Assembly (NCBI RefSeq): GCF_014193675.1
Contig: NZ_BLXZ01000001.1
Location: 558,001-622,000 of the forward strand
Direction: 5' to 3'
DNA: 64,000 bases
DNA from: Geomonas limicola
Lineage (GTDB): Bacteria > Desulfobacterota > Desulfuromonadia > Geobacterales > Geobacteraceae
Shown: positions 30,303-48,926 of the stretch, in pieces
Position numbering within the stretch: position 1 is the stretch's first letter
How the letters are laid out: every line of letters begins with the position of its first letter
Made by a program: the position numbers and the translations under genes
The notes under the pieces: generated by a model
Seen by the model: only the letters and a program-made list of their open reading frames with translations
Databases searched by the model: none
What the model was told of the DNA's origin: nothing

Positions 30303-31679
30303 ATGCACACCCCACTGTTCTGGCAACAGGGAACCCTGCTGCAGCCGCAGCACTTCCAGCTGATGGAGCAAGCTGCCGCGGAGCGCCTGTTCCCGTACCA
30401 CACCTACCTGCAGCCGTACCTCTGGGGAGTGGGATCCTTGAAAATCAGGAAGGCGGCGCTGAACCTGGGGAGTTTCGAGGTGACGGAGGGGGAGTTCCTC
30501 TTTCCCGACGGCAGCTTCGCGGCCTTCCCGCTCAACGCCCGGCTCGCCCCGCGCAGCTTCGATACGAACCTGCTGGAAGACGGCAAGCCCTACCCGGTCT
30601 ACCTGGGACTCAAGAAATGGCAGGAGCACGCCGCCAACGTGACCCCCTCAGCGGACCACGATATTGCAGCGACAGCGACGCGCTTCGCCGCAGGGACGCA
30701 GGGGGCCATGGTGCCGGACCTCCACGCAGGGGGACCCGAGGTGGAGGTGCAGCGGCTCGATCTGGTGCTGCGCATCTTTTGGGAAACGGAGCTTGACCAG
30801 TTGGGGGAGTACGAACTTATCCCCCTGGCACAGCTGGAGAGAAACGGCGCGGAGATCGTCTGCTCGGAGCGCTTCGTACCGCCGAGTCTTTGCTGCTCGG
30901 CCTCGTCGGTGCTCAACCAGTTGATCCGCGAAATCCGTGACCAGGTCATGGCGCGGGCCCGCCAGCTCGAGGAGTACAAAACCAAGCGCCGCATCCACGG
31001 CGCGGAGTTCGGCTCGCGCGACATGGTCTTCATCTTGGCCCTGGGAGCGGTGAACCGCTATCTGCCGCTTTTGGTCCACTTCGTTGAGGCGCCCCGGCAA
31101 CACCCCTGGCAGGTCTTCGGGGTGCTGCGCCAGCTGATCGGGGAGTTGAGTACCTTCTCCGACACCATCGACCTGCTGGGACAGGGGCCGGGCGATCAGG
31201 GGCTGCCGGGCTACCGGCACCGCGACCTCTGGGGGTGCTTCGCCGCGGCGCAGCGCCTGATCCTCAGGCTCCTCGACGAGGTGAGTGCCGGGCCGGAGTA
31301 CGTGATCGGCCTGCCGTTCGACGGCAGGAACTACAGCTGCGACCTGAAGCCAGCCATCTTCGAAGGGCGCAACCGGTTCTTTCTGGCGGTGAAGACCGAA
31401 GAAGAGCGCCAGACCGTGTTGCAGGAGTTGGAGCAGGGAGCCAAGGTGAGCTCTCCGATCCACCTGGAACTCCTGGTGAACCGGTCTTTGCCGGGAATCC
31501 CTCTGCAGTACCTGCAGATCCCGCCGCAGGAACTTCCCCGGCGGGCAGACACGCTGTATCTGGCCATCGATCACAGCGATCCCCAGTGGGACGGCATCCG
31601 CAAGGAACGCAGCCTCGCCCTGCACTGGGCCGGGGCCCCCGAAGGGGTGGTTGTCGAGCTGATGGTGGTGGGGAGGTGA
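30303..31679 (+). CDS. tssK: Type VI secretion baseplate protein TssK
   Basis: The 458-aa protein begins MHTPLFWQQGTLLQPQHFQ, the typical TssK start, and the C-terminal region contains PGIPLQYLQIPPQELPRR. TssK links the baseplate to the membrane complex. It is 17 bp after tssJ with GAGAGCC as RBS. Confidence 0.93.
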   Translation: MHTPLFWQQGTLLQPQHFQLMEQAAAERLFPYHTYLQPYLWGVGSLKIRKAALNLGSFEVTEGEFLFPDGSFAAFPLNARLAPRSFDTNLLEDGKPYPVYLGLKKWQEHAANVTPSADHDIAATATRFAAGTQGAMVPDLHAGGPEVEVQRLDLVLRIFWETELDQLGEYELIPLAQLERNGAEIVCSERFVPPSLCCSASSVLNQLIREIRDQVMARARQLEEYKTKRRIHGAEFGSRDMVFILALGAVNRYLPLLVHFVEAPRQHPWQVFGVLRQLIGELSTFSDTIDLLGQGPGDQGLPGYRHRDLWGCFAAAQRLILRLLDEVSAGPEYVIGLPFDGRNYSCDLKPAIFEGRNRFFLAVKTEEERQTVLQELEQGAKVSSPIHLELLVNRSLPGIPLQYLQIPPQELPRRADTLYLAIDHSDPQWDGIRKERSLALHWAGAPEGVVVELMVVGR

Positions 31680-31685
31680 AAGGCC

Positions 31686-32366
31686 ATGCACCTGGTGGAA
31701 TGTTTCCTGCCGCTCTTTAACTTCCAGCTCCGCCTCCTGGAGCGCCTGGACGCCGAGCAACCCGAGTACCCGGAGGTTCGCGCCGAGGTCGAGCGCCTGA
31801 TCGGGCACAGCCAGGAGCACCCCGCACATTCGGTGGTGAGCGCCAAGGAGTACGCCGACGCGCGTTTCGCCGTCTGCGCCTGGGTCGACGAGGGGATCCT
31901 CAACTCCGGGTGGCGGCACAAGGAGCCCTGGCTTGCAGCCCAGCTGCAGCGGGTCTACTACGGTACGAGCGATGCCGGTGAGCTCTTCTTCAAGCATCTC
32001 AAGGAACTCGGCGCGGAACAGCAGGAAGTACGCGAGGTGTACTATCTTTGCCTGGCCCTCGGCTTCTCGGGTCGTTTCTGCGATGAGGAAGCCGCCTGGC
32101 ACCTGGAGCAGGTGCGGGCATCCACCCTCAAACTTCTCCAGCACGGGCACCTGGCGGCTCTCGACCAGGAGGCGCCGGGACTCTTCTCCGCAACCCGCCC
32201 CGTCCCCGCAGACTCCCCCTCCCTGCAGCGCCCGCGCAGCGTGTTCCTCGCTCCCGGCCCTCTCTGCGTCGCCGCCTCGCTGCTCCTCTTTGTGGTCCTG
32301 TACCTCGTCTATTCCTTCATCCTGAACGGCATCGGCAACAATTTCCTGAAAACGGTGGGGACCTGA
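31686..32366 (+). CDS. tssL: Type VI secretion protein TssL (DotU-type)
   Basis: The 226-aa protein has the DotU cytoplasmic helical domain (VSAKEYADARFAVCAWVDE, GGF-like ALGFSGRF) and a single C-terminal membrane segment (about 188-215). The peptidoglycan-binding OmpA domain of long TssL proteins is absent, so anchoring must depend on another protein. It is 6 bp after tssK. Confidence 0.92.
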   Translation: MHLVECFLPLFNFQLRLLERLDAEQPEYPEVRAEVERLIGHSQEHPAHSVVSAKEYADARFAVCAWVDEGILNSGWRHKEPWLAAQLQRVYYGTSDAGELFFKHLKELGAEQQEVREVYYLCLALGFSGRFCDEEAAWHLEQVRASTLKLLQHGHLAALDQEAPGLFSATRPVPADSPSLQRPRSVFLAPGPLCVAASLLLFVVLYLVYSFILNGIGNNFLKTVGT

Positions 32367-32368
32367 AG

Positions 32369-35300
32369 ATGCAAGCCCTTCGTGGAACGTTCGGTACCTC
32401 CTTGCGCTGGTTTCTTACCGGCACCCTCTTGTTTCTGACCGGTTGCGCGTTCGCACTCGTGGTCGCCTGGCCCTGGTGGGTCGGCGCCTGCCTGGCGCTC
32501 ACCACCCTGGGCCTCGCCCTGGGTGTTCTCATTCTGGTGAGGTTCTGGAGGCGCCGGCGCGGTGCCCCGGTTGCGGAGGAGCCGGAATCGGCCGACACAC
32601 GGGCGGCGCTGGAGGCCAAGGATGCGGATCTGCGCAGCGTGGAGCACTGGTTCGCAGCAGGAGTTGCCGCATTGCGCCGCACGCAATTGAAGCGCCTGGG
32701 GAACCCGCTCGACGCCCTCCCCTGGTACCTGGTGCTCGGGCCGACCGGCGCGGGAAAGAGCACCGCACTCAAGGAGGCCCGGCTCGCCGCACCGATTCCG
32801 GAACCAACCTGGCAGGAGGAGAGCGCGGCACCCTGGAACTGGAGTTTCCTGGAGCGGGCGGTACTTCTCGACCTGCCGGGGTGCTACGCGAGCGCGACCG
32901 GGAGCGCGGCGCACCGGCACAAGTGGCATCGCCTGGTGGCCCTCCTGGCGCGGCACCGCAAAAAGCCGGTCAACGGCGTGCTGCTCATGGTAGGGGCGGA
33001 CCACCTGTGGGAGGCCACGGCGGAGCAATTGGAAGAGGACGCCCTGACGGTGCGGCAGCGCATCGACGAACTGATGGGATCGGGCAGGGTCCGGATCCCG
33101 GTGTACCTCGTGGTGACCAGGTGCGACCTGATCCCGGGGTTCGGCGACCTCTCCCGCCTGTTGCCCCCCGGCCGCCTCGGCGAACCGATGGGCGAGCTGG
33201 TCCGCGAACCGGCCGCTCCCAACCTGGTCGTCGCGGGTCTCGTGGAAGCCCTCCAGGAGCGCCTGAGAAGCCTGCGTCCCGTGCTCCTGGCCCGCGCGGC
33301 TGCCGACCCGGCACGCTCCGCTGTGTTCGAACTCCCCGAGGCGTTCGGCCAGCTGCAACTGGGTCTGGAGAACTTCGCCGGCCATTGTTTCGGGACAAGT
33401 CCCTACCGCGAGACGCCGCTTTTGCGCGGTATCTTCTTTACGGCATCAGCGCTCGAAGCTGCACCGGGCCCGGATGCCTCAGCCGGCCAGCGGCGTTGCG
33501 GGCTCTTTCTCCACGACCTGCTCGGGTCGCTGATTCCCGCGGACCAGGCAGGACTCAGGCACACCGAAAGCTGGCTGCGTTGGCGCCGGGGCACCTGGCG
33601 CCTTGCCCTCGGCGGTACCCTGGCCTTGAGCCTTGCCCTGAGCGGCCTTTTGACCTTTTCGTTTGTGAAGAACCTGGAGGTGCTGCGCTCCCTGGGCGGT
33701 TTGGCAGCGGTATCCCCCTCGTCGGGAAGCACACCAGGCGGGGCGGCACGGCTCGAGCGTTTCCGGCAGGGGATCGTCGAGGTCGAGGCGCAGAACCGGG
33801 CGTGGTGGCTGCCGCGTCTCGGCCTCACCGCGAGCCTCAAGGTCGAAGAGGATCTCAAGGGACGCTACTGCAGGGAGTTCCGCCAGACGGTGCTGAACCC
33901 GCTGGACGAACAGCTGCAGAGTACCGCGGAGCCCGCGCTCCCCAGCTCTTCCGACGCGGACTACGGGCGCCGGGTCATGTACCTGGTGCGGCGCGCCAAC
34001 CTGGTCCGGCAGGCCCTGCTGGTCCGTACCCCCGAGCAGCTGGCCCGCCTCCCCCAGCCAGATTTTGTTCCCTTGCAGGGGCCGACCTCCGCGTCTGGAG
34101 TGCAGCTTGCCACCCTGTACCGCTACTATATTGCCTGGAACCGTGACCGGGGTGCCGTCGGAGAGGAGCTCGCCCGGCTGCAGGGCTCTGTGAAGCGCCA
34201 GTTGGCGGCCCGGGGGGGGCGGCTGGAGTGGTGCCTCGCCTACCTGGAACAGGATGGCGGAATACCGGGAGTGACCCTCAAGGAGTTTTGGGGCGGCAGC
34301 CGCGAATTCAGCGCTGCGCCGACGGTCGCAGGCCCCTGCACCGGGCAGGGACGCCAGGCGGTGGCAGCGCTGCTTGACGAGCTGGAAACGACGCTCCCCG
34401 ACCGGCAGGAATTTGCTAGAACGCGCGGAGCCTTTCTTACCTGGTACCAGGGAAAACGGTGGGAGGCCTGGTACCGGTTCGCCGCGCAGTTCGGGCAGGG
34501 GAGCAGGCGACTGGCCGGCAGGACCGAATGGCAGCAGGTGGCGGCGCGCATGGCAACGGACCAGGGTCCCTATTTCGCCCTCGTAAACCGCATCGAGCGC
34601 GAGGTGGGAACCGACGGGCAGGCGCCCGATTGGCTGGCAACGGTCCGCGAGTTCGGGCGCATCCGGCGCGAAGCCCAGACCACCGCGGGGGTCAACCGGA
34701 TGGCAGAGACCGGGAAGCTGGTCCTCACCACGGTGCGCAAGAGTGCGGGGCAACAGGCGGGTGCGGAGCGCCTGGAGGCCGAGGTCGCCACGGCGCGCGC
34801 GGGGCGGGACTACCTGGAGGCCCTGGCGGCCCTGGCCGCGGCGAGCGCTTCCCGCAGCGAATCCTTCAGACTGCTCGCCCAGGCCTACCAGGAGGACCCC
34901 GCGACCGGGACCTCTTCCCTGGCCGGCGCACTGCGGGCCGCAGCGAGGCTCAAGAAGGGGCTGCCGCAAGGAGGCGGGGATACGCTGGCCGCGACGCTGG
35001 TCAGCGGGCCGCTCGACTATCTCCTGGGCTACCTGCGCCGGGAGGGGGCCAGCCAGCTGCAGGAACTCTGGGAGGAGCAGGTACTCGCGGCGACCCAGGG
35101 CCTTTCCGGGCAGCAGGCTGCAGCGCTATTGTTGGGGCCGGATGGTGCGGTGTGGCGCTTCGTCAAGGGTCCCGCAGCCCCCTTCCTGACCGCGTCCCTC
35201 TCCGGTTTCCGTCTCCGGGAGCTCACCGGGGCCAGCCTCCCCATCGATGCCGCTCTGCTGCGCTACCTCGGCAAGGGGGTCGAGACTCGGGCGGCAGTTG

Positions 35301-35755
35301 CCGCGCTCGCCAAACCCGTGAGCTACCCGGTTGGGATCCGGGGACTTCCCACCGACAGCAACAGGGACGCGAAAGTGCGGCCGCACGCCACCCGGCTCGA
35401 GCTCCTCTGTAGCGGATCCAGCCAACAATTGGTGAACCAGAATTACCCGGTCGCCAGGACCTTCCAGTGGTCGCCGGAGAATTGCAGCGATGTGACGCTG
35501 CAGATCGAGGTCGGCGACCTGGTGCTGACCAGGCACTACCCGGGGGCGCAGGGATTGCCCGATTTCCTGCGGGACGTGCAGGGAGGCAGGCGCAGTTTCC
35601 CGGCGCACGAGTTCCCCAGCGAACAGCAGGCCTTGAAACGGCTGGGGGTGAAGACCATCACCGTCAACTACCAGATCACCGGGAGCGCGCCGCTGCTCAG
35701 GCAGGCGGTGGTCTTGAGCGGCCAGGCGCCGCGGGTCATCGCGCAGGGGTGGTAG
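32369..35755 (+). CDS. tssM: Type VI secretion membrane protein TssM (IcmF)
   Basis: The 1128-aa protein has two N-terminal membrane segments (about 12-55), a Walker A motif GPTGAGKST at 124-132, a GTPase-like domain with DLPGCYAS and TRCDLIPGF, a third membrane helix near 410-430, and a large periplasmic part that contacts TssJ. It is 2 bp after tssL. The length is normal. The intact Walker A suggests nucleotide hydrolysis. Confidence 0.95.
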   Translation: MQALRGTFGTSLRWFLTGTLLFLTGCAFALVVAWPWWVGACLALTTLGLALGVLILVRFWRRRRGAPVAEEPESADTRAALEAKDADLRSVEHWFAAGVAALRRTQLKRLGNPLDALPWYLVLGPTGAGKSTALKEARLAAPIPEPTWQEESAAPWNWSFLERAVLLDLPGCYASATGSAAHRHKWHRLVALLARHRKKPVNGVLLMVGADHLWEATAEQLEEDALTVRQRIDELMGSGRVRIPVYLVVTRCDLIPGFGDLSRLLPPGRLGEPMGELVREPAAPNLVVAGLVEALQERLRSLRPVLLARAAADPARSAVFELPEAFGQLQLGLENFAGHCFGTSPYRETPLLRGIFFTASALEAAPGPDASAGQRRCGLFLHDLLGSLIPADQAGLRHTESWLRWRRGTWRLALGGTLALSLALSGLLTFSFVKNLEVLRSLGGLAAVSPSSGSTPGGAARLERFRQGIVEVEAQNRAWWLPRLGLTASLKVEEDLKGRYCREFRQTVLNPLDEQLQSTAEPALPSSSDADYGRRVMYLVRRANLVRQALLVRTPEQLARLPQPDFVPLQGPTSASGVQLATLYRYYIAWNRDRGAVGEELARLQGSVKRQLAARGGRLEWCLAYLEQDGGIPGVTLKEFWGGSREFSAAPTVAGPCTGQGRQAVAALLDELETTLPDRQEFARTRGAFLTWYQGKRWEAWYRFAAQFGQGSRRLAGRTEWQQVAARMATDQGPYFALVNRIEREVGTDGQAPDWLATVREFGRIRREAQTTAGVNRMAETGKLVLTTVRKSAGQQAGAERLEAEVATARAGRDYLEALAALAAASASRSESFRLLAQAYQEDPATGTSSLAGALRAAARLKKGLPQGGGDTLAATLVSGPLDYLLGYLRREGASQLQELWEEQVLAATQGLSGQQAAALLLGPDGAVWRFVKGPAAPFLTASLSGFRLRELTGASLPIDAALLRYLGKGVETRAAVAALAKPVSYPVGIRGLPTDSNRDAKVRPHATRLELLCSGSSQQLVNQNYPVARTFQWSPENCSDVTLQIEVGDLVLTRHYPGAQGLPDFLRDVQGGRRSFPAHEFPSEQQALKRLGVKTITVNYQITGSAPLLRQAVVLSGQAPRVIAQGW

Positions 35756-35777
35756 CCGGACCCCACGAGGGATTGCC

Positions 35778-37325
35778 ATGGAGCACGAGCTTTCTCAACT
35801 AGGCCGTCACCCGATCAGCCCGGAGGCTCCCGCCGGAACCGAGGTCCGAGAAGACCCCCTCTTCGAGGCATTGCAGGCCGAGGTGGAGAAGCTCTCGGCA
35901 CCGGCTGCGGCGGAACCGGTGGACTGGCCCAAGGTGGCGCGCCTCTCCGCGGGGCTCCTGGCGGAGAAGTCCAAGGACCTCCTGGTGGCAAGCTACCTCT
36001 GCGTGGCGCTGGTCCACACCGAGGGGTGCGCCGGATGTGCCCGCGGGCTTACCTGCTACCGGGAACTCCTGGAGCATTTCTGGGAGAAGCTCTACCCGCA
36101 GAAGAACCGGCTGCGGGCCAGGGTGCGGGCCCTGGAGTGGTGGGTCGAGAAGACGTTGTGCGCCCTGGAACAGCTGGGATCGGTCAGCTGGTCCTCGCAG
36201 GTGCGCGATGGGGTGCTCGACGAGTTGACCCGCCTGGAGCGCCTGCTGCACGACCACCTGGAAACCCCGCCGTCGCTCGCCCCGCTAATCGACTATTTCT
36301 GCAGCGTGCAGCTGGTGACCGCCGGCGAATCGACGGAACAAACCATCCCCGCGGAAACGGAGCGGGCTTTCCAGCCAGCGGCACTGCGGGAGGGTGCGGC
36401 TGGCCGGGAAGGCACGCCGGAGGAAGTCGGGAGCATCGAGGCGGCCATTACGGCGCTCTCCCGTGCCACCTTCCAGGGCTGGCAGCACAACCTCGCCAAC
36501 CCGCACCCCTACCGCCTCAGGCGCCAGCTCGCCTGGTCCGCGCTCGAGGACCTGCCGCCGGCACAGAAGGGGCGCACCAGGCTCGCTCCCCCGCCCCAGG
36601 CGCTGTTGACCCTTTTGGAGGACCTGCAGCGCAGCGGCGAGCCGGAGGCGCTGCTGCGGGCCGCCGAGACCCGGCTGGACGAGTACCTCTTCTGGCTGGA
36701 CCTGAGTTTTTACGCCTACCGGTCCTTGCAGCGCCTGGGGGAAGGGTACCTGCAGGCGGCAGAGGCGGTACGCCAGGAAACCGTCTTCCTGGTGCGGCGG
36801 CTCCCCGGCCTGGAGGAGCTCTCCTTTGCCGACGGCACCCCCTTTGCCCGCAGCGAAACCGCCGGCTGGCTCGCCGCGGGAAGCGCGCTCGCCCCCCTCA
36901 CCTCCTCAAGCGACGCACCGGAGCCGGCGCTCACACTGCAAACACACGCGGCCGGCGAAGAGCAGGTCCGGCACCTGGTCAGGTCCGGGAGGCTCACGGA
37001 AGCGATCGAGCAGAGCCAGCGACGACTCAAGGAGTGCGGCTGCGGCAGGGAGCGGCTGTTCTGGCGGGTCACCATGGCCGGGATGCTCATGGCGGCCGGT
37101 CAGGGGCGCATCGCCCTCCCCTACCTCGACCAGGTACTCGAGGAGCTGGACCGCCACCACCTGGAGGAGTACGAACCCGAGCTCGCCCTGCGTGCCCTGG
37201 AGCTTGCCTGGCGCGCCTACCGTGAGCAGTCGGAATCCCAGGCCCAGGAGATAGCCAACACGCTGTTACTCAGGATCGGGAGGCTCGACCTCCCCGAGAT
37301 GCTGAGACTCACCCACCGCTCGTGA
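35778..37325 (+). CDS. tssA: Type VI secretion protein TssA
   Basis: The 515-aa protein has an ImpA N-terminal domain (LGRHPISPEAPAGTEVREDP, then CAGCARGLTCYRELLEHFWE) and a helical C-terminal half. TssA proteins cap and organise sheath polymerisation. It is 22 bp after tssM. The C-terminal half shows a repeat-like helical pattern typical of VasJ/TssA. Confidence 0.88.
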   Translation: MEHELSQLGRHPISPEAPAGTEVREDPLFEALQAEVEKLSAPAAAEPVDWPKVARLSAGLLAEKSKDLLVASYLCVALVHTEGCAGCARGLTCYRELLEHFWEKLYPQKNRLRARVRALEWWVEKTLCALEQLGSVSWSSQVRDGVLDELTRLERLLHDHLETPPSLAPLIDYFCSVQLVTAGESTEQTIPAETERAFQPAALREGAAGREGTPEEVGSIEAAITALSRATFQGWQHNLANPHPYRLRRQLAWSALEDLPPAQKGRTRLAPPPQALLTLLEDLQRSGEPEALLRAAETRLDEYLFWLDLSFYAYRSLQRLGEGYLQAAEAVRQETVFLVRRLPGLEELSFADGTPFARSETAGWLAAGSALAPLTSSSDAPEPALTLQTHAAGEEQVRHLVRSGRLTEAIEQSQRRLKECGCGRERLFWRVTMAGMLMAAGQGRIALPYLDQVLEELDRHHLEEYEPELALRALELAWRAYREQSESQAQEIANTLLLRIGRLDLPEMLRLTHRS

Positions 37326-37367
37326 ACATCGCCGCTACAGGCCGCCTGAGGGGGCCGGGAGGTTTCC

Positions 37368-37844
37368 ATGACCAAAGAGACAACGGTAGCACCACGGGAG
37401 CGGGTCAACATCGTCTACCGCCCCGCACTGCAGGACGCCCGCGAGGAGGTGGAGCTCCCGCTCAAGATGCTGGTGTTGGGTGATTTCACCGGCAGAGCGG
37501 ACGAGCACCCGGTGGAACTGCGCACCCCGATGAACGTCGACCACAATTCGCTGGATGAGGTACTCAAGGCGCAGCAGGTCAGCCTCGCCATCACGGTGGA
37601 GGACCGGATCTCTGGTGCAGGAGAGCTCACGGTGCAGCTCGACATCGAGTCACTGCGGGATTTCACCCCTCAGGCCATCGTCGAGCAGGTTCCGGAATTA
37701 CGACGGCTCGCCGAACTGCGCGAGGCACTGCGGGCGCTCAAGGGACCGCTGGCGAACCTCCCGGAATTCCGCAAGAAGCTCCAGGAGGCCATCGGCGACC
37801 CGGCGACCCGCCAGAAGCTTCTCGGCACCGCTGCGCCGGAATAG
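37368..37844 (+). CDS. tssB: Type VI sheath small subunit TssB
   Basis: The 158-aa protein has the TssB/VipA motifs RVNIVYRPAL, LPLKMLVLGDFTG and LRDFTPQAIVEQVPELRRL. It assembles with TssC as the contractile sheath. It is 42 bp after tssA with GGGAGG as RBS. Confidence 0.95.
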   Translation: MTKETTVAPRERVNIVYRPALQDAREEVELPLKMLVLGDFTGRADEHPVELRTPMNVDHNSLDEVLKAQQVSLAITVEDRISGAGELTVQLDIESLRDFTPQAIVEQVPELRRLAELREALRALKGPLANLPEFRKKLQEAIGDPATRQKLLGTAAPE

Positions 37845-37853
37845 GGGGACACC

Positions 37854-39344
37854 ATGAATAACAACTATCCATTCCCGACGCAGACCCTGGACATCCCGAT
37901 CCCGACCGTCGACTTGGTCCAGGAGATCGTCCAGTCCACCCGCATCGAGCCCGCCGACGAGGCCTATGCCCTCACCTGCCGCGGGGTCGAGACGCTCATC
38001 ACCCAGCTGGCCGCCAGGGAGAGCGGGCCGGTCCGGGTCTCCAGCGCGAGCCTCGACCAGCTGATCGCCGAGCTGGACCTGAAACTAAGCCGGCAGCTCG
38101 ACGAGATCCTGCACCACGAACAGTTCCAGAAGCTGGAGTCGGCCTGGCGCTCACTCGAGTTCCTGGTCAAGCGGGTCGATTTCCGGGAGAACATCAGGGT
38201 CGAGATCCTGCAGGTCAGCAAGGAAGAGCTTGCGGAGGACTTCGAGGACGCACCCGAGGTGGTGCAGTCCGGCCTCTACAAGACCGTGTACAGCGCCGAA
38301 TACGGCCAGTTCGGCGGCACCCCCTACGGCTGCCTGATCGGCAACTACCAGTTTTGCGCAGCCGCCGCGGACGTGAGACTGTTGCAGCAGGTGGCCCAGG
38401 TGGCAGCCCTGAGCCACACCCCGTTCATCGCCGCCGCGGCAGCGCAGTTTTTCGGGGTGGCAGAGTACGGCGCCCTTCCCCTGCTGAAGGATCTTTCCTC
38501 GACCCTCGAGGGGCCCCAGTACCTGAAGTGGCAGGCCTTCAGGGAGACCGAGCCGGCACGCTACGTGGGGCTTACCCTGCCGCGCTTCCTGCTGCGCCTC
38601 CCCTACGGCCCGGACGGGATCCCGGTGCGCCACTTCGACTACCGGGAACAGGCAGGGGCCGACCCGCGCCACTACCTGTGGGGCAACGCCGCCTTCGCCT
38701 TGGCGAGCTGCCTCGCCGAAAGCTTCGCGCGCTACCGCTGGTGCGCCAACATCGTCGGCCCGCAGGGGGGCGGCGCGGTCCGGGACCTGCCGCTCTACCA
38801 CTACCAGGCGCTCGGCTCCCTGCAGACCAAGATACCGACCGAGGTGCTGGTCTCGGAGCGCCGCGAGTTCGAACTGGCGGAGCAGGGTTTCATCGCGCTC
38901 ACCATGCGCAAGGGGAGCGACAACGCGGCCTTCTTCTCCGCCAACTCGGCGCAGAAGCCGAAGTACTTCGGCAGTTCGGCCACCGGCAAGGAAGCCGAGC
39001 TCAACTACCGGCTCGGGCTGCAGCTCCCCTACCTCTTCGTGGTGAGCCGGCTCGCCCACTACCTCAAGGTGATCCAGCGCGAGCAAATCGGCACCTTCAA
39101 GGAGCGCGACGACCTGGAACAGGAGCTCAACAGCTGGATCAGGCAGTACGTCTCGGACATGGACAGCCCGATGCCGGGGGTACGCAGCCGCCGCCCGCTG
39201 CGCCAGGCCGAGGTCTCGGTGGAGGAGGTCCCCGGGGAGGCGGGGTGGTACCGGGTCTCGCTGCAGGTCCGGCCGCACTTCAAGTACCTGGGAGCCTACT
39301 TCACCCTGGCACTGGTGGGCCGGCTGGACCGCGAGAAACGCTAA
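37854..39344 (+). CDS. tssC: Type VI sheath large subunit TssC
   Basis: The 496-aa protein has the VipB motifs FQKLESAWRSLEFLVKR, EYGQFGGTPYGCLIG and LYHYQALGSLQTKIPTEV. It is 9 bp after tssB. Together with TssB it forms the sheath that contracts to drive the Hcp tube. Confidence 0.96.
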   Translation: MNNNYPFPTQTLDIPIPTVDLVQEIVQSTRIEPADEAYALTCRGVETLITQLAARESGPVRVSSASLDQLIAELDLKLSRQLDEILHHEQFQKLESAWRSLEFLVKRVDFRENIRVEILQVSKEELAEDFEDAPEVVQSGLYKTVYSAEYGQFGGTPYGCLIGNYQFCAAAADVRLLQQVAQVAALSHTPFIAAAAAQFFGVAEYGALPLLKDLSSTLEGPQYLKWQAFRETEPARYVGLTLPRFLLRLPYGPDGIPVRHFDYREQAGADPRHYLWGNAAFALASCLAESFARYRWCANIVGPQGGGAVRDLPLYHYQALGSLQTKIPTEVLVSERREFELAEQGFIALTMRKGSDNAAFFSANSAQKPKYFGSSATGKEAELNYRLGLQLPYLFVVSRLAHYLKVIQREQIGTFKERDDLEQELNSWIRQYVSDMDSPMPGVRSRRPLRQAEVSVEEVPGEAGWYRVSLQVRPHFKYLGAYFTLALVGRLDREKR

Positions 39345-39369
39345 CGCACGCAGATAAGGAGGAAGCACC

Positions 39370-39855
39370 ATGGCCATGCCGGCACACCTCACCCTGGAGG
39401 GGGAAAAACAGGGGAAGATCGAGGGTTCCTGCGACATGCAGGGACGGGAAGGGAGCATCCTGGTCTACGGGATGGACCACGCGGTCAACATCCCGCGCAG
39501 CCCCACCGACGGGCTTGCCACCGGCAAGAGGGTGCACGGGCCGCTGTCGGTGGTGAAAGAGTACGACAAGAGCTCACCCAAGCTCTACCAGGCGCTGTGC
39601 ACCGGCGAACACCTGAAGAGGGTGACCCTCAAGTGGTACCGCATCACCAAGCAGGGGACCGAAGAGCACTACTTCACCCACACCCTGGAGGACGCCATCG
39701 TGGTCAGCGTGAGCCCGTTCATGCCGACCACCCTGCTCTCGGAGAACGACCCCTACCGCCACATGGAGAAGGTCTCCTTCACCTACAAGAAGATAAAGTG
39801 GACCTGGGAGCCCAGCGGCATCGAGGCGGAGGATTCCTGGTCGGCACCCAAGTGA
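39370..39855 (+). CDS. hcp: Hcp tube protein (TssD)
   Basis: The 161-aa protein has the Hcp fold markers IEGSCDMQGREGSI, RVHGPLSVVKEYDKSSP and FTYKKIKWTWEPSGIEAEDSW. Hcp hexamers stack into the inner tube. It is the last gene of the operon; a dispersed palindrome and a strong hairpin terminator follow. Confidence 0.95.
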   Translation: MAMPAHLTLEGEKQGKIEGSCDMQGREGSILVYGMDHAVNIPRSPTDGLATGKRVHGPLSVVKEYDKSSPKLYQALCTGEHLKRVTLKWYRITKQGTEEHYFTHTLEDAIVVSVSPFMPTTLLSENDPYRHMEKVSFTYKKIKWTWEPSGIEAEDSWSAPK

Positions 39856-41988: not shown

Positions 41989-42004
41989 TACATAACGCTA
42001 ATGG

Positions 42005-42062
42005 CAGCACAGGGCAAAGGAGCATCCGGGCTTCGCAAAGCCGTACCGGATACCTTACCCGC
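42005..42062 (+). promoter_or_regulatory. GEMM-like leader of the PEP-CTERM mRNA
   Basis: The leader has GCACAGGGCAAA (42007-42018) and CGCAAAGCC (42034-42042), the two conserved strands of the GEMM-I (c-di-GMP/cGAMP) riboswitch. The GAAA-capped hairpin that normally joins them is replaced by a short GGA-GCA-TCC. A hairpin ATCCGG/CCGGAT with inner GCTT/AAGC (42024-42051) is also possible. It may be a variant riboswitch or an unrelated leader. Confidence 0.4.
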
Positions 42063-42084
42063 CACTTTGTTGGAGGAGGAAATC

Positions 42085-42696
42085 ATGAGAAGAGGTCTTG
42101 AACGAGCCTTGAGCAGCTGCTCCGCGGCATCCCGCGGCTGGACGATCCTCATTCTTGCTGTCCTGGTACTTGCCTGCGCCACGCCGGCCCGGGCAACACT
42201 GATCGGCAGCCCGGTGTCCCATCCGGACCTGACCATCTCCTACCTCGAGGTAACCCCCAGCGCGGGTACCATCTCTGCGGCGAGCAGCAGTTTAAACCCC
42301 TACCTCGACCTCTGGTTGAACCCGTTAGTCGATGTCTTCCTCACCGGCAGCTACCTCCTGAGCTACAACGAGATCAGCCATTCCGGGCACCTGACCATAC
42401 AGGGGACCATCGATGACACCCAGGAAAACTTCCTGATCTCGGGTGCCATCATCCAGTTCGGCAGCTCCGGGGACGGCAAGGCCTACGACTTCCTGGTGCA
42501 GCTCGACGCCATCGACCCGGTGCTCTCCGCCTGTGGGTTCGGCGGGGTCGGCTCGGTGATCTACACCGACCTCTTGCACAACGGCGACATCTGGCAGTCG
42601 GACACCGTGCCCGCCGCGGTTCCCGAGCCCGGGACGGTCATGCTGGTGGCAAGCGGGATGACCCTGGCGGCCCTGTGGCGTCGCCGGGAATCCTAG
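42085..42696 (+). CDS. PEP-CTERM sorting-domain protein
   Basis: The 203-aa protein has a signal peptide (ILILAVLVLACATPARA) and a C-terminal PEP-CTERM tail: the motif VPEPGT, a hydrophobic helix and WRRRES. Such tails are cleaved by exosortase and the protein is delivered to the cell surface or extracellular matrix. The start at 42085 follows GGAGGAGG. No exosortase gene is in this window. Expression is under the sigma-54 promoter just upstream. Confidence 0.9.
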   Translation: MRRGLERALSSCSAASRGWTILILAVLVLACATPARATLIGSPVSHPDLTISYLEVTPSAGTISAASSSLNPYLDLWLNPLVDVFLTGSYLLSYNEISHSGHLTIQGTIDDTQENFLISGAIIQFGSSGDGKAYDFLVQLDAIDPVLSACGFGGVGSVIYTDLLHNGDIWQSDTVPAAVPEPGTVMLVASGMTLAALWRRRES

Positions 42697-42794: not shown

Positions 42795-45700
42795 ATGATC
42801 CGACTCAGATTCCTCTTCGTTTGCCTTGTCCTGCTCCTGACCGCCCAGCCCGCCTGGTGCGACATCCTCGGGGTGACGCCGGGCTACCCGAACACCACCT
42901 TCTCGAGCGTCACCGGCACGAGTTTCTCGCCGACCAGCGGGCTCTTGAGCGTCGCCACGACGCCGCAACTCACCACGCTCAGCTCCGGCACCACGGCAGT
43001 GAGGGTCGGCACGCCGCGCTCGCTTACCATCGCGGTCCAGGTGGACAGCTCCGGGCGGCTGGTGGGCGGGGTGAACGGCGACGACCTGGTGTTGATCGGC
43101 ACGGTCGGGAGCTACACCGGCACCCTGTTGACCGGGGAGATCATCGAGTACGGCATCACGAACTCGGGGGCCATCGACTACCTGGACTTCAGGTTCCGGG
43201 TGACCGGCGGCGCCCTGGCCGGGCTCTACGCCGGGCAGGACATCGGGGTGACCCAGTCGATCGAGAACTCAAGCTTCAACGGCTCCTTCCTGGCGGCCTT
43301 CGCGGGAGGGGCCAAGGGGAACCTGGGACCCATCCCCCAGAAACCGGTCTGCAACGGGGCGATCGGCGACTTCGTCTGGAACGACCAGAACCGCGACGGC
43401 ATCCAGGACGCGGGGGAGCCGGGACTCGACAACGTGCGGCTCACCCTTCAGGACGCCACCGGCAACCAGCTGGCCAGTACGCTGAGCGGCCCCAACGGCG
43501 CCTACCTCTTCAGCGGGCTGTGCGCCGGGAGCTACACGGTGAGCGTCGACGCGACCACCCTCCCCGCGGGCTTCGTCCCCTCGCCGGCCTACCAGGGTGG
43601 CGATACCACCCGCGACTCCAACCCGACAGGCACCCAGGTGACGCTCCCCACCGGGAGTACGGTGGAGCGCAGTATCGACTTCGGCTACAACTCCCCCTGC
43701 ACCGGTTCCCTCGGCGACCTGGTCTGGCACGACCAGAACCGTAGCGGCATCCAGGATCCGGGCGAACCCGGGATCAACGGGGTGACGGTGAACCTCTACA
43801 ATCCGGCGAGCGGGGCCCTTATCGGTGCCACCACGACCAACGGCACGGGCAACTACCTGTTCACCGGCCTGTGCGCCGGCAGCTACCGGGTGGAGGCGCT
43901 CCCCCCCGCAGGTTTCGTGGCCTCCCCTTCTCTCAAGGGGAGCGACCGGGCGGCGGACAGCAACCCCAACCCGGCCGAGATCACCCTCCCCAGCGACTTC
44001 ACCAGCGAGCCCACCGTCGACTTCGGATTCAACACCCCCTGCACCGGGTCGATCGGCGACTTCGTCTGGCAGGACCTTAACCGTAACGGCATCCAGGAAC
44101 CGGGCGAGCCCGGGATCAACGGGGTGCGGGTGCTCCTCAAGGACAGCTTCTCGAACCTGATCGCCAGTGCGAGCACGACCGGCAACGGCTTCTACCAGTT
44201 CACCGGCCTGTGCGCCGGGAGCTACCGGGTCGAGGTGGATGCCACCACGCTCCCCGCCGGCCTGGTGGCCTCGCCAGTCCAGGCCGGGGGCGACCGTGGC
44301 GCCGACAGTAACCCGAGCCCCGCCCCGGTTGTCCTCGACAGCGACGCGAGTAGCGACGCGACCGTCGACTTCGGCTTCAACACCCCCTGCTCCGGGTACA
44401 TCGGTGACCTGGTCTGGCTTGACGCCAACCGCGACGGCATCCAGAACCCCGGCGAGACCGGCATAAACGGTGTTACGGTCCTCCTGAAGGACGCCGCCAA
44501 CACGACCAGCGCCACGGCCACGACCGGAACGGGCCCCCTGGGGCAGGCGGGATACTACGGTTTCTCCGGCCTGTGCGCCGGCAGCTACACGGTCGAGGTG
44601 ATCACCCCGGCGAACCTGGTCCCCTCGCCGAGCCTGGCAGGCGCCGACGTCAGCGTGGACAGTAACGGCAGCCCCGCCGCGCTCTACCTCCCGGCCGACG
44701 ACAGCGTGGAGCCCACCATCGACTTCGGCTTCAATCCCCCCTGTTCCGGGAGCATCGGCAACCTGGTCTGGGACGATGCCAACCGGAACGGGATCCAGGA
44801 CGCCGGCGAAGCAGGGATCGACGGCGTCACGGTGAACCTGCGCGACGCCTCCAACGTCCTTATCTCCTCCACCACGACGGCCGGCGGCGGGCTCTACCAG
44901 TTCGCCGGCCTGTGCGCGGGGAGCTACCAGGTCGAGGTCATCCCCCCCGCCGGGCGTGCCGCCTCACCGGTACTTGCCGGCAACGACCGTGCTCTCGACA
45001 GCAATCCGAACCCCGCACCGGTACTGCTCGCCGGCGATTCCAGTTCGGACCAGAGCATCGACTTCGGATTCAACACCCCCTGCACCGGCACGATCGGCGA
45101 CCTGATCTGGCACGACACCAACCGCGACGGCATCCAGGGTGGTGCCGAGCCGGGGATCGCCGGGGCACAGCTTGTCCTGAAGAACGACCAGGGGACGGTG
45201 ATCGCCACGACGAGCAGTAACGCCTCGGGCGCCTACCGGTTCGCCGGCCTGTGCCGCGGCAGCTACACGGTCGAGGTGGCCACCCCGGCCGGCTTCGTCC
45301 CCTCGCCGAGCCTCGCCGGGAACGACCGCGCCCTGGACAGTAACCCCGTCCCGGCGCCGGTCGTCCTCGCCGACGACGCGAGCCAGGACCTCGGCATCGA
45401 CTTCGGCTTCAACACCCCCTGCACCGGAGTCATCGGCGACTTCGTCTGGAACGACCTGAACGCGGACGGCATCCAGGATGCCGGGGAACCCGGACTCGCC
45501 GGTGTCACCGTGAACCTGCGCGACGGGCTCAACACCCTCTTGCGCACCACCCAGACCCTGGCCGACGGCTCCTACCGCTTCATCGGGGTGTGCGCCGGCG
45601 ACTACCGCGTCGAGGTGGTGCCCCCGGCGGGGCTTACGCCTGCTCCGGTCCAGGCCGGCAGTAACCCCGCGCTCGACAGTAACCCGAACCCCGCGGCAGT

Positions 45701-48700
45701 CAGCCTCTTCGAGGACAGCGCCAGCGACCTCAGCATCGACTTCGGCTACTTCCGTGCCCTGCCGGGGCTAAGCGTCAAGGCCTCCTGCCAGAGCGCCCCG
45801 GCTCCCGGCCTCCCGATCTCTGTCACGGCGCTCGTCACCAACACCGGCAACGAGACGCTCACCGGGCTCGGCTGCTCGGACAGCCAGGGGAGCCAGCTTT
45901 CCGGGATGCCGACCAGCCTCGCACCGGGGCTTAGCTTCACCCTGACCGGCAGCTACCTCCCGGCGGGAAGCGGCTCGCTCGACACGGTAACCTGCAGCGC
46001 CACCGGGGCCCTCGACCAGGCCGGCGTCTCGGCCTCCTCAAGCGCCAGCTGCGGCATCCTCACCGCGCCCGCCTTGACCGTGACGGCGAGCTGCGCCAGC
46101 GCCCCGGTACCCGGCCTCCCGGTGACCGTGAGCGCCGTCCTGACCAACGCCGGCAACGAGACCCTGGCCGGCTTTAGCTGCACGGACAGCCAGGGCGCTT
46201 CCCTCTCCGGGATCCCGACCCTGCTCCTCCCCGGTGCCAGCGCGACCGTAACCGGCAGCTACCTCCCGGCCAGCGCCACTTCCAGCGAGACCATCAGCTG
46301 CAGCGCCCGCGGCACCATCAACGGGGTCACGGTGAGCGCCGACTCGAGCACGAGCTGCGGCACCGACGGCACGGTCTGCATCAAGGTGAAAAAGCAGGTG
46401 AGCACCACCTGCACGGTAACCGGCGGCAAGGACAAGCACTGCCGGTCCGACGAGGGGAAAGAGGAGCACTGCAAGCGCCACGATACGGACCACGGCTACT
46501 GCCGCGACAGTGCCGCGACCAAGGCGAGCTACTGCCACGAGGTCTCCCGCAAGCAGGCCCACTGCCAGGCATACGAAACGAAGGCGAGCCACTGCGCCAA
46601 GTCCGACTGCGACAAAAGCTACTGCGAGCGCCCCGACCTGGACAAGGACGACTACTGCAAGATCCCGGCGGTGCCGGTCTGCGTGCCGGTCTGGCTCGAC
46701 GCCGACACCCAGGACACCGGCGCCCCGGTACTTCCGGTCCTGAAGGGCGAGCTGGCGAACGGTGATGATCTGCTGGCCAAAATCTCCAGCGGCTCGCTCG
46801 CCGACAGCATCCCCGGCTGGCTCGCGAAGATCCTCCAGGCACTGTCGCGCGACGACAGCGACCAGGCCGAGGTGAAGGAGAGTACGGAGAGCGAGGCGAC
46901 CGTCTCCCTTACATGCGACAGTTCCGAATACTACCAGGGGCACCAGCGCCAGTCCGGCCTCGCTTTCCGCTTCATCGTCGAAAACTGCGGCACGAGCGAC
47001 CTGACCCAGGTCTCCCTGGACGACCCGCGGCTGGGTATCGCCGGTTACCAGGTGGGTGCCCTCGCCGCCGGGGAGAGCATCACCATCGGCGCCGACGCCA
47101 TCCCGAAGCTCGCGCAGCCCGATTTCACCTGCACCAGCTCCTTCGTGAACACCGTGACGGCGACCGGCACTGACCTCTTCGGGCACAGCGCGAGCGCAAG
47201 CGACGACGCCTTCGTAATCTGCAACACGAAGAGTTGCACCTTCACCCAGGGGTACTGGAAGAACCATCCGGCGCACTGGCCGGTAACAAGCCTCAAGCTG
47301 GGGAACACGAGCTACACCCAGAGCCAGCTGATCGCCATCTTCGAGACCCCCAACGCCGGCAACGGCCTCATCAGCCTCGCCCAGCAGCTGAGCGCCGCGA
47401 AACTCAACGTCGCCAACGGGACCCGGCTGCCGAGCGGCGTACAGCAGGCGATCACCAGCGCCGACCAGTTGATCGGGGCACTGGTGGTGCCGCCGGTGGG
47501 GAGCGGCAGCCTCTCGAGCGCCCAGACCGCGGCGCTCACCCAGACTCTCGAGAGCTACAACAGCGGCAGCTACCCCGGCGGCCCGAGCCACTGCGGCGAG
47601 GCCCCGCCCCCCAGCTGCAGCGGGGTGATCGGGGACTTCGTCTGGAACGACCTCAACAAAAACGGCAGCTACCAGGCCGGGGAGCCGGGGCTTGCCGGGG
47701 TGAAGGTGACCTTGAGTAACGGCAAGAGCACCACGAGCGACGCGACCGGTCACTACCAGTTCACCGGACTGTGCCCCGGGAGCTACCAGGTGAAGGTGGT
47801 CCCCCCCTGCGGGTACCAGCCGACTTCCCCGGGTACCGTGAGCGTCACCCTGACCGCCAGCGCCGCGAGCAACCTCTCCGCCGACTTCGGCCTCGCCAGG
47901 CCGGGCGTTTCCTGCAGCGGCAAGATCGGCGACTTTATCTGGAAGGACCTCAACAAGAACGGGATCCAGGACTGGGGCGAACCGGGTCTCGCCGGTGTCA
48001 CGGTGAGCCTTGGTAACGGGGCCTCCACCACGAGCGACGCGAACGGCTACTACCAGTTCACCGGGCTGTGCGCCGGCGAATACCAGGTGAGCGTCGCCAC
48101 CCCGACCGGCTACACCCCGAGCCCGGCGGGTCAAGGGACCAACAGCGCGAGGGACAGCAAGCTGAGCCCGACCAAGGTGACCCTCTCCAGCAACGCGAGT
48201 TCGGTGCAGAACCTCGACTACGGGTTCTTCAAGAGCACGGCCCCCGAGTGCACCGGGGTAATCGGCAACTACGTCTGGAACGATGCCAACAAAAACGGCC
48301 TGCAGGACTGCACAGAAAAGGGGATCGCGGGCGTGGTGCTGCGGCTTAGTACCGGCCAGAGCGCGGTGACCGATGCCGAGGGTCACTACCAGTTCACCGG
48401 CCTTTGTGCCGGGAGCTACACGGTCAGCGTGCTGACCCCGGACGGCTTTACCCCCTCGCCGACCCTGCAGGGGGGAAGCCGTGCCTCGGACAGTAACCCC
48501 ACCCCGGCCACGGTGACCCTGGGCGACAACCGCGGCTCGGATCTCGGCATCGATTTCGGGTTCTGGAAACTCCCGAAACCCGGACAGGGTGAGGGGTGCA
48601 GCCTCGGGTACTGGAAAACCCACAGCGCCAGCTGGCCTGCGGCACACCACGGCTACGACAGCTTCGACGGCACCTTCGGGGTAAGCGCCTTCAGCCCCGA

Positions 48701-48926
48701 CCTCACGCTCTTACAGGCAGTGAACCTGGGGGGCGGCGGCCTCAACAACCTGGCCCGCCAGGCCGCAGCGGCGCTGCTCAACGCCGAGGACGGCCGGATC
48801 AAGGGGTTCCCCCTCTCGGTGAGCGAGCTCAAGGGGGCATTGGCGGCGGCCCTGGCGTCGGGAAGCTACGACGCCCTGGCGGCAACGCTGGACGCCTACA
48901 ACAACCTCTGCTGCCCGCTCAAGTAG
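42795..48926 (+). CDS. Giant secreted protein with SdrD-type B repeats
   Basis: The 2043-aa protein has a signal peptide (LFVCLVLLLTAQPAWC). After an N-terminal domain come seven SdrD-type B repeats (about 185-980, each with CxGxIGDFVW, NRDGIQDxGEPG and GLCAGSY), two SCxSAPxPG beta domains (about 985-1190), a Cys-rich decapeptide array (about 1212-1288) and a GYWKNHP domain (about 1485-1590). Three more B repeats (about 1608-1932) and a second GYWKTH domain finish the protein. Each B repeat has a pair of Cys for a disulfide and a Ca-binding loop. No LPXTG, PEP-CTERM or membrane anchor is present. It is probably a secreted adhesin or matrix protein. Confidence 0.88.
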   Translation: MIRLRFLFVCLVLLLTAQPAWCDILGVTPGYPNTTFSSVTGTSFSPTSGLLSVATTPQLTTLSSGTTAVRVGTPRSLTIAVQVDSSGRLVGGVNGDDLVLIGTVGSYTGTLLTGEIIEYGITNSGAIDYLDFRFRVTGGALAGLYAGQDIGVTQSIENSSFNGSFLAAFAGGAKGNLGPIPQKPVCNGAIGDFVWNDQNRDGIQDAGEPGLDNVRLTLQDATGNQLASTLSGPNGAYLFSGLCAGSYTVSVDATTLPAGFVPSPAYQGGDTTRDSNPTGTQVTLPTGSTVERSIDFGYNSPCTGSLGDLVWHDQNRSGIQDPGEPGINGVTVNLYNPASGALIGATTTNGTGNYLFTGLCAGSYRVEALPPAGFVASPSLKGSDRAADSNPNPAEITLPSDFTSEPTVDFGFNTPCTGSIGDFVWQDLNRNGIQEPGEPGINGVRVLLKDSFSNLIASASTTGNGFYQFTGLCAGSYRVEVDATTLPAGLVASPVQAGGDRGADSNPSPAPVVLDSDASSDATVDFGFNTPCSGYIGDLVWLDANRDGIQNPGETGINGVTVLLKDAANTTSATATTGTGPLGQAGYYGFSGLCAGSYTVEVITPANLVPSPSLAGADVSVDSNGSPAALYLPADDSVEPTIDFGFNPPCSGSIGNLVWDDANRNGIQDAGEAGIDGVTVNLRDASNVLISSTTTAGGGLYQFAGLCAGSYQVEVIPPAGRAASPVLAGNDRALDSNPNPAPVLLAGDSSSDQSIDFGFNTPCTGTIGDLIWHDTNRDGIQGGAEPGIAGAQLVLKNDQGTVIATTSSNASGAYRFAGLCRGSYTVEVATPAGFVPSPSLAGNDRALDSNPVPAPVVLADDASQDLGIDFGFNTPCTGVIGDFVWNDLNADGIQDAGEPGLAGVTVNLRDGLNTLLRTTQTLADGSYRFIGVCAGDYRVEVVPPAGLTPAPVQAGSNPALDSNPNPAAVSLFEDSASDLSIDFGYFRALPGLSVKASCQSAPAPGLPISVTALVTNTGNETLTGLGCSDSQGSQLSGMPTSLAPGLSFTLTGSYLPAGSGSLDTVTCSATGALDQAGVSASSSASCGILTAPALTVTASCASAPVPGLPVTVSAVLTNAGNETLAGFSCTDSQGASLSGIPTLLLPGASATVTGSYLPASATSSETISCSARGTINGVTVSADSSTSCGTDGTVCIKVKKQVSTTCTVTGGKDKHCRSDEGKEEHCKRHDTDHGYCRDSAATKASYCHEVSRKQAHCQAYETKASHCAKSDCDKSYCERPDLDKDDYCKIPAVPVCVPVWLDADTQDTGAPVLPVLKGELANGDDLLAKISSGSLADSIPGWLAKILQALSRDDSDQAEVKESTESEATVSLTCDSSEYYQGHQRQSGLAFRFIVENCGTSDLTQVSLDDPRLGIAGYQVGALAAGESITIGADAIPKLAQPDFTCTSSFVNTVTATGTDLFGHSASASDDAFVICNTKSCTFTQGYWKNHPAHWPVTSLKLGNTSYTQSQLIAIFETPNAGNGLISLAQQLSAAKLNVANGTRLPSGVQQAITSADQLIGALVVPPVGSGSLSSAQTAALTQTLESYNSGSYPGGPSHCGEAPPPSCSGVIGDFVWNDLNKNGSYQAGEPGLAGVKVTLSNGKSTTSDATGHYQFTGLCPGSYQVKVVPPCGYQPTSPGTVSVTLTASAASNLSADFGLARPGVSCSGKIGDFIWKDLNKNGIQDWGEPGLAGVTVSLGNGASTTSDANGYYQFTGLCAGEYQVSVATPTGYTPSPAGQGTNSARDSKLSPTKVTLSSNASSVQNLDYGFFKSTAPECTGVIGNYVWNDANKNGLQDCTEKGIAGVVLRLSTGQSAVTDAEGHYQFTGLCAGSYTVSVLTPDGFTPSPTLQGGSRASDSNPTPATVTLGDNRGSDLGIDFGFWKLPKPGQGEGCSLGYWKTHSASWPAAHHGYDSFDGTFGVSAFSPDLTLLQAVNLGGGGLNNLARQAAAALLNAEDGRIKGFPLSVSELKGALAAALASGSYDALAATLDAYNNLCCPLK

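Follow-up and report, generated by a model that had tools for sequence, protein, structure and literature searches.

The decapeptide array described here and the charged linker that follows it form an insert within one probable DUF7507 domain of a giant protein, placed right after the strand that carries the presumed isopeptide Lys. The protein is encoded in the window, the whole 64,000-nt stretch of Geomonas limicola DNA that was analysed (source genome, 5.23 Mb). Two orthologues of the array were found, and only two, in Geomonas silvestris Red330 (G015) and Geomesophilobacter sediminis Red875 (G024). From the computed periodicity, conservation and insertion site of the array, and from the alternative inserts seen in relatives, we put it at about an even chance that the array serves a secreted, fibrillar-adhesin-like protein as a contact loop that is displayed and stapled by disulfides.

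The host protein of 2043 aa matched SdrD_B (PF17210) in 10 stretches (931.3 bits, E 9.5e-287), which identifies it as a tandem SdrD_B protein, and DUF7507 in 3 stretches (62.5 bits, E 4.3e-17, whole protein). Its whole-protein NCBIfam scores stayed below the cut-offs for SdrD (713.6 vs 2500) and SdrC (653.2 vs 1700), so that it does not qualify as an MSCRAMM Sdr protein, and the NCBIfam rows gave no name to the array. The N-terminus is hydrophobic and, by eye, signal-peptide-like; no sortase signal was seen by eye, and neither a surface anchor nor a secretion partner was identified for the window protein. Regions similar to its N-terminal head were recognised by eye in the G024, G054 and G107 proteins. 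Directly 5' of the giant gene (42001-42696) lies a gene for a small PEP-CTERM-type protein ending VPEPGTVMLVASGMTLAALWRRRES; for G015, an upstream PEP-CTERM-like gene was absent from the best ORF matches. Further upstream (30303-39855), a series of genes resembles by eye a type VI secretion cluster (TssK, TssL, TssM, TssA, TssB, TssC, Hcp), and nothing connects this cluster to the 2043-aa protein. The layout of the gene is as follows.

42795 to 48926, plus strand: host gene, an SdrD_B / DUF7507 fibrillar-adhesin-like protein of 2043 aa (open ORF and Pfam).
42861 to 43343, plus strand: N-terminal head region, without a match in the Pfam search.
43347 to 45674, plus strand: stalk of seven SdrD_B domains (counted by eye) with 14 Cys (ORF translation and Pfam).
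45759 to 46361, plus strand: two DUF7507-like domains with four Cys each (Pfam, alignment and Cys counts).
46374 to 46403, plus strand: strand A of the host DUF7507 (CLIPPER_2) domain, VCIKVKKQVS, carrying the presumed isopeptide Lys K1200 (predicted strand, first-block pLDDT 80; alignment).
46404 to 46964, plus strand: whole insert of the host domain, 187 aa, comprising array and charged linker (comparison with relatives; AlphaFold2 confidence is low here).
46410 to 46412, plus strand: C1206, the Cys that opens the array, invariant in the three orthologues.
46413 to 46535, plus strand: array module 1, units 1-4 (KHC, EHC, GYC, SYC; 10, 10, 10 and 11 aa).
46536 to 46658, plus strand: array module 2, units 5-8 (AHC, SHC, SYC, DYC; 10, 10, 10 and 11 aa).
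46680 to 46682, plus strand: C1296, the Cys that closes the array, invariant in the three orthologues.
46683 to 46964, plus strand: charged linker 3' of the array, containing C1374 (46914-46916) and less conserved than the array.
46965 to 47222, plus strand: remainder of the host DUF7507 domain, where the presumed Asp (D1410) and Asn (N1452) lie.
47223 to 47603, plus strand: first GYWKNH-type domain.
47616 to 48584, plus strand: three C-terminal SdrD_B domains (counted by eye).
48597 to 48923, plus strand: second GYWKTH-type domain, the C-terminal end of the protein.

A sequence-only reading of this DNA had listed the eight units by their endings and had set them apart from the surrounding beta repeats. 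Both observations hold: the eight units follow one another in an open frame (46413-46658) with their [HY]C Cys at residues 1216, 1226, 1236, 1247, 1257, 1267, 1277 and 1288, and the array is distinct from its surroundings. Its 82 residues include 11 Asp, 10 Lys, 9 Cys, 7 His and 5 Tyr; the hydrophobic residues are two Val and one Leu, with Ile, Met, Phe and Trp all absent. Three Cys come in addition to those listed earlier: C1206 and C1296 at the two ends and C1272 inside unit 7. The periodicity is far above chance: the longest [HY]C chain at a spacing of 10-11 was 4 when the array residues were shuffled 200,000 times (reached in 2 shuffles) and 2 when the whole protein was shuffled 2,000 times, compared to 8 observed. 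Unit lengths (10,10,10,11,10,10,10,11) and pre-Cys residues (H,H,Y,Y,H,H,Y,Y) are the same in the window and in G015; G024 has lengths of 10,10,10,11,10,10,10,10 and pre-Cys residues H,Y,Y,Y,H,H,Y,Y. Units 3 and 7 read x-[KR]-x-D-x-D-x-x-Y-C in all three orthologues. An extra Cys separates the two Asp in every unit 7, and in G024 it does so in unit 3 as well.

The recurrence of lengths and end residues suggests that a four-unit module was duplicated once, which would account for both. The statistics for this period of four, which was noticed post hoc, are modest: it arises by chance in 6 of the 70 His/Tyr arrangements and in 4 of the 28 ways to place the two longer units, and the lag-4 similarity is matched by 10.5% of unit orders. 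A repeat-register alignment of overlapping five-unit pieces re-aligned only the overlaps and was dropped. Tandem Repeats Finder reported no DNA array over 46410-46658 (nearest row, 46671-46693), and the direct repeats in the array DNA are short and imperfect (15-38 nt, copies 61-81% identical). The array is therefore not a fresh DNA expansion.

AlphaFold2, run on the three-row alignment of the orthologues (284 aa; mean pLDDT 49.3), was confident for a strand at residues 3-11 and for strands from residue 195, while residues 12-193 fell under 50 and the array itself reached a pLDDT of 28-38. The host-domain core of the window protein scored 24.5 and 25.9 bits against DUF7507 (PF24346, gathering cut-off 27 bits) and 27.3 bits with strand A joined; in G024 joining raised the score from 37.8 to 40.3 bits, so that the gains are small and in the expected direction. 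The window domain resembles DUF7507 at these scores, as do the domains of G054, G266 and G024 at 33-40 bits, but it differs from the family in being split after strand A by 187 aa, and its pieces score below or at the cut-off. Lys, Asp and Asn, which in the window protein are K1200, D1410 and N1452, are aligned in 11/11 host domains, in a sequence-based alignment whose domain boundaries were set by the analyst at sequence motifs; Asp and Asn are also invariant in 7/7 rows of a separate alignment. We presume from this that K1200 and N1452 are joined by an isopeptide bond.

PMC12617251 gives DUF7507 the new name CLIPPER_2, with Lys, Asp and Asn as predicted isopeptide residues, and describes a CnaA-like bond as joining the first and penultimate strands. 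The same source states that isopeptide folds tolerate loop inserts, which are usually isopeptide or adhesion domains, and tabulates GBS104-like_Ig as two separate ranges. As described there, RrgA and Spy0125 carry large inserts between the bonded residues. The window domain would share with RrgA, Spy0125 and GBS104 a large insert between isopeptide-bonding residues; it differs from those cases (PMC12617251) in that its insert is a hydrophobic-poor Cys repeat in a Gram-negative protein. Insertion into an isopeptide-type domain is thus already known. Our few and narrow literature searches found neither this repeat nor such a variety of inserts at one Gram-negative site, and no paper on SdrD B-like proteins with Geobacter, on Cys-rich or decapeptide repeats, or on adhesive Cys/Tyr/His repeats.

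We compared the same loop in relatives. The core and GYWK domains were found in 17/277 genomes of the class and, by profile, in 13/395 genomes of the phylum draw. Eleven proteins, those with a DUF7507-type and a GYWK domain readable in one frame, were compared, and in 9/11 strand A is followed by an insert of 105-600 aa. These inserts are of four kinds: the decapeptide array with its linker (window, G015 and G024; 186-187 aa), nine repeats of 61-63 aa (G094 and G107; 599-600 aa in total), Tyr/Lys/Asp repeats (G184, G266 and G182; 191-193 aa) and Asp/Ser repeats (G181; 105 aa). Among the Tyr/Lys/Asp repeats, a 7-residue period of Tyr stands out in G182, can be seen in G184 and is weak in G266. 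The remaining two proteins lack a long insert and have a connection of 26 aa (G054) or 20 aa (G512). The nine inserts consist to 34-54% of charged residues and His, compared to 9-22% in the remaining parts of these proteins, and the other DUF7507-type domains of the 11 proteins are, by eye, mostly insert-free. Collectively, these comparisons show that relatives have the loop site in common but apparently not its inserts. The Lys/Ser/Asp/Tyr repeats in the inserts of L064, L065 and L067, two of which often space Tyr by seven residues, could form a charged helical hairpin. Another DUF7507-type domain of G266 (L065), which starts SVDGGMTWFEADN, has at the equivalent loop an insert that consists of two copies of a different domain, folded-looking by eye.

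Matches outside this set of 11 were of several kinds. G222 and G520 have a DUF7507-type domain with no long insert by eye and no GYWK domain in an open frame; G063 showed neither insert nor GYWK domain; G268, G151, G164 and G405 have a GYWK domain without a preceding DUF7507 domain. The contig of G062 starts inside the domain, stops interrupt the frame in G037 and G069, and no frame was read in G296 and G599. The phylum matches G351, G454, G594, G619 and G637 cover the DUF7507 half only.

The array itself is present in 2/19 genomes of the genus, in 3/141 genomes of the order (window, G015 and G024; a fourth weak match was rejected) and in 3/277 genomes of the class (three weak matches rejected), and an even draw of 395 genomes across the phylum contained only the window's own array (two weak matches rejected). 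A scan of genome contigs, in which the window's genome was possibly left out, returned two loci, in Geomonas silvestris and Geomesophilobacter sediminis, and plasmid and phage records gave no match at E<=0.1. The rejected profile matches (G114, G156, G253, G595 and G598; E 0.001-0.009) are without the decapeptide array: stop codons interrupt the frame in G156, G253 and G595, the frame of G114 spans 108 codons and its Cys are irregular, and G598 (L027) is a look-alike, a pentapeptide-repeat-like protein with HC every ten residues. In the remaining 17 genus genomes the core and GYWK domains were likewise without a match, so the whole gene, and not the array alone, is seemingly missing there. Two neighbour genes of the window, which were sought for a syntenic empty site in other Geomonas, had high identity only in G015 (79% and 86%). 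In that genome (L015, about 5600-6500) the signal peptide and head are absent, with tblastn finding only residues 174 on at the expected place; because these parts are lost, the G015 copy may be decaying, which would leave two intact-looking genomes. The G024 protein has both signal peptide and head.

The sequence-only reading had proposed that the array could bind metal, form a disulfide ladder or cross-link subunits, and had named absence or loss of periodicity in orthologues as the outcome that would speak against selection. The array is kept in register in both orthologues, with all 11 Cys from C1206 through C1296 invariant in the three proteins, and among the three proposed functions the disulfide ladder is now indirectly favoured by the Cys counts. 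The host domain with its insert holds 16 Cys in 3/3 orthologues, although the sets differ: the window and G015 have C1374, whereas G024 is without it and has the extra unit-3 Cys instead. The preceding DUF7507 domain has 4 Cys in 3/3, the one before that 4 in the 2/2 cases where it was located, and the first GYWK domain 2 in 3/3. These even counts are weak evidence that fits complete disulfide pairing, and the preserved parity through a compensating swap weakly favours disulfides over metal ligands; it could also be chance. Even parity is not universal, because the C-terminal part of the window protein, from residue 1608 on, holds 11 Cys and the protein has 51 after residue 22. C1206 and C1296 may pair in a neck disulfide. 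Cys are also regular through the SdrD_B and the two DUF7507-like domains that precede the array (43347-46361). The latter two (45759-46361) lack the presumed isopeptide Lys and Asn at the aligned columns, as if disulfides took the place of isopeptide bonds.

Metal binding fared less well. If Cys and His, with some Asp and Tyr, held Zn, Cu, Ni or Fe, the array would be a surface loop for sequestering or sensing metal. Its dense Cys and His (9 and 7 per 82 residues) would suit such a role, as would a pre-Cys His at three of the eight positions in 3/3 orthologues and at a fourth in 2/3. However, the other four pre-Cys positions, half of the total, are Tyr, as is a fifth in G024, and Tyr binds most of these metals poorly. 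The Cys parity of the host domain and the Cys pairs of the stalk point to disulfides instead, and inspection of 29000-54000 by eye revealed no gene for metal handling. We consider this reading unlikely.

Alternatively, a Lys/Asp-rich loop that exposes Cys and Tyr could act as an intermolecular cross-linker or glue, bonding molecules to one another or to surfaces as in cement-like adhesive proteins. The richness of the array in Asp, Lys, Cys, His and Tyr, nearly without hydrophobics, and the Tyr/Lys/Asp repeats at the equivalent loop of relatives are consistent with this. The even Cys count of the host domain, in contrast, suggests internal pairing, and the anaerobic habitat makes Tyr oxidation unlikely, which also counts against a cross-linker. 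This makes such a role rather improbable.

The array might also be neutral low-complexity filler of an accessory gene, open merely by being in frame. Its presence in so few genomes of the order, the loss of the 5' part of the G015 copy and the tolerance of the loop for widely different inserts would all agree with filler, and dN/dS was 0.59 for the array relative to the more distant G024, no lower than in its neighbours (0.27-0.61 for the other comparable regions; the 1.17 of the SdrD_B block comes from a block that is not truly aligned). Relative to G015, however, dN/dS was 0.23 for the array, the same as for the folded domains (0.21-0.28), and 0.37 for the post-array linker. Identity with G024 is 61% for the array and 42% for the linker. 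Between G024 and the window, 9/9 array Cys were unchanged compared to 32/65 other residues (Fisher p = 0.0035), so that the array Cys, which are kept in both orthologues, were retained while about half of the other residues changed; 7/8 pre-Cys His/Tyr were also unchanged, which is not significant (p = 0.06), and relative to G015 neither Cys nor His/Tyr conservation was significant. The unit lengths are likewise kept, with one unit shorter by a residue in G024. Neutral filler is improbable on this evidence.

The nine repeats of G107 (L068, residues about 1426-2024) and G094 (L066, about 1245-1844) bear about five Cys each and share the length order 61,63,61,61,61,61,63,61. They resemble Dockerin type I (PF00404) with its EF-hand-like Ca loops: the 61-aa repeat matched Dockerin_1 at 24.0 bits (cut-off 22.9; three G107 repeats tested), and a Dx[DN]xDGxxDExD loop was present in 18 repeat copies, a count restricted to copies with the DY[DN]xDG anchor, so that the selecting pattern already demanded most of the loop. 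The window decapeptides, in contrast, had no dockerin match (Pfam, E<=10), and homology between the array and the 61-aa repeat was not found (profile P 0.08 and 0.21; eight column-shuffled controls, 0.074 to 0.45). There is only a small chance that the array is a calcium-stiffened spacer whose Asp-rich units (DTDHG, DCDKS, DLDKD) bind Ca2+ as the relatives' dockerin-like repeats may. The Dockerin_1 match and the loop of the repeats at the equivalent site speak for it; the lack of a profile relation, and the absence by eye of a complete DxDxDG loop from the array, speak against it.

The earlier statement that no named domain fits the array was borne out. The best Pfam match was Keratin_B2 (E = 1; 9.7 bits, cut-off 28.7), and a PDB sequence search with the array gave none at E<=1. 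We also modelled one module (42 aa) from a six-row alignment containing both modules of the three orthologues, so that half of the rows are the other module. The model (pLDDT 74.9, pTM 0.48) has four short helices, which span the last four or five residues of each unit, from about Lys to His/Tyr or Cys, provisionally suggesting one short helix per unit. A Foldseek search with this model returned nothing from the PDB at E<=10. Regular Cys spacing near ten and disulfide-stapled short repeats also occur in CX9C / CHCH proteins and in the disulfide-ladder antifreeze proteins of insects. CHCH proteins, however, require hydrophobic helix faces, which are absent from the array, and antifreeze coils are 12-residue Thr/Cys repeats.

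Returning to the preferred reading, a disulfide-stapled contact loop, we propose the following arrangement. The charged decapeptides, probably two four-unit modules, and the linker lie after strand A, ahead of the remainder of the CLIPPER_2 beta-sandwich. Because the presumed K1200-N1452 isopeptide bond would lock the first strand, the loop could stand out from the stalk without the domain unzipping. Successive units would form a small coreless solenoid, with one short helix each ending in His/Tyr-Cys, and disulfides between the conserved Cys would hold it. Contact with the target, be it mineral, particle, cell or matrix, would be made by the loop, and the inserts at this position differ between lineages. 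The adhesive role is suggested by analogy, from the company of domains and the precedent of the pilus proteins. A bolder version is possible but doubtful: that the strand-A loop of CLIPPER_2 beside GYWKNH is a cassette exchange site on an isopeptide-locked scaffold and that, in addition, the array folds as a coreless, disulfide-laddered solenoid of a new kind. The cassettes swapped in Gram-negative fibrillar proteins would then include decapeptide Cys, Cys-dockerin, Tyr-rich and Asp/Ser repeats.

If these proposals are correct, Gram-negative soil bacteria hold exchangeable, non-globular display loops on an isopeptide-locked beta-sandwich, and the insertion principle of the pilus proteins would reach another domain family and repeats without a hydrophobic core. 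The array would then allow folding by disulfides alone to be tested in a compact system. Geomonas and its relatives would also possess a candidate family of large surface-contact proteins, the variable loops of which would be directly testable.
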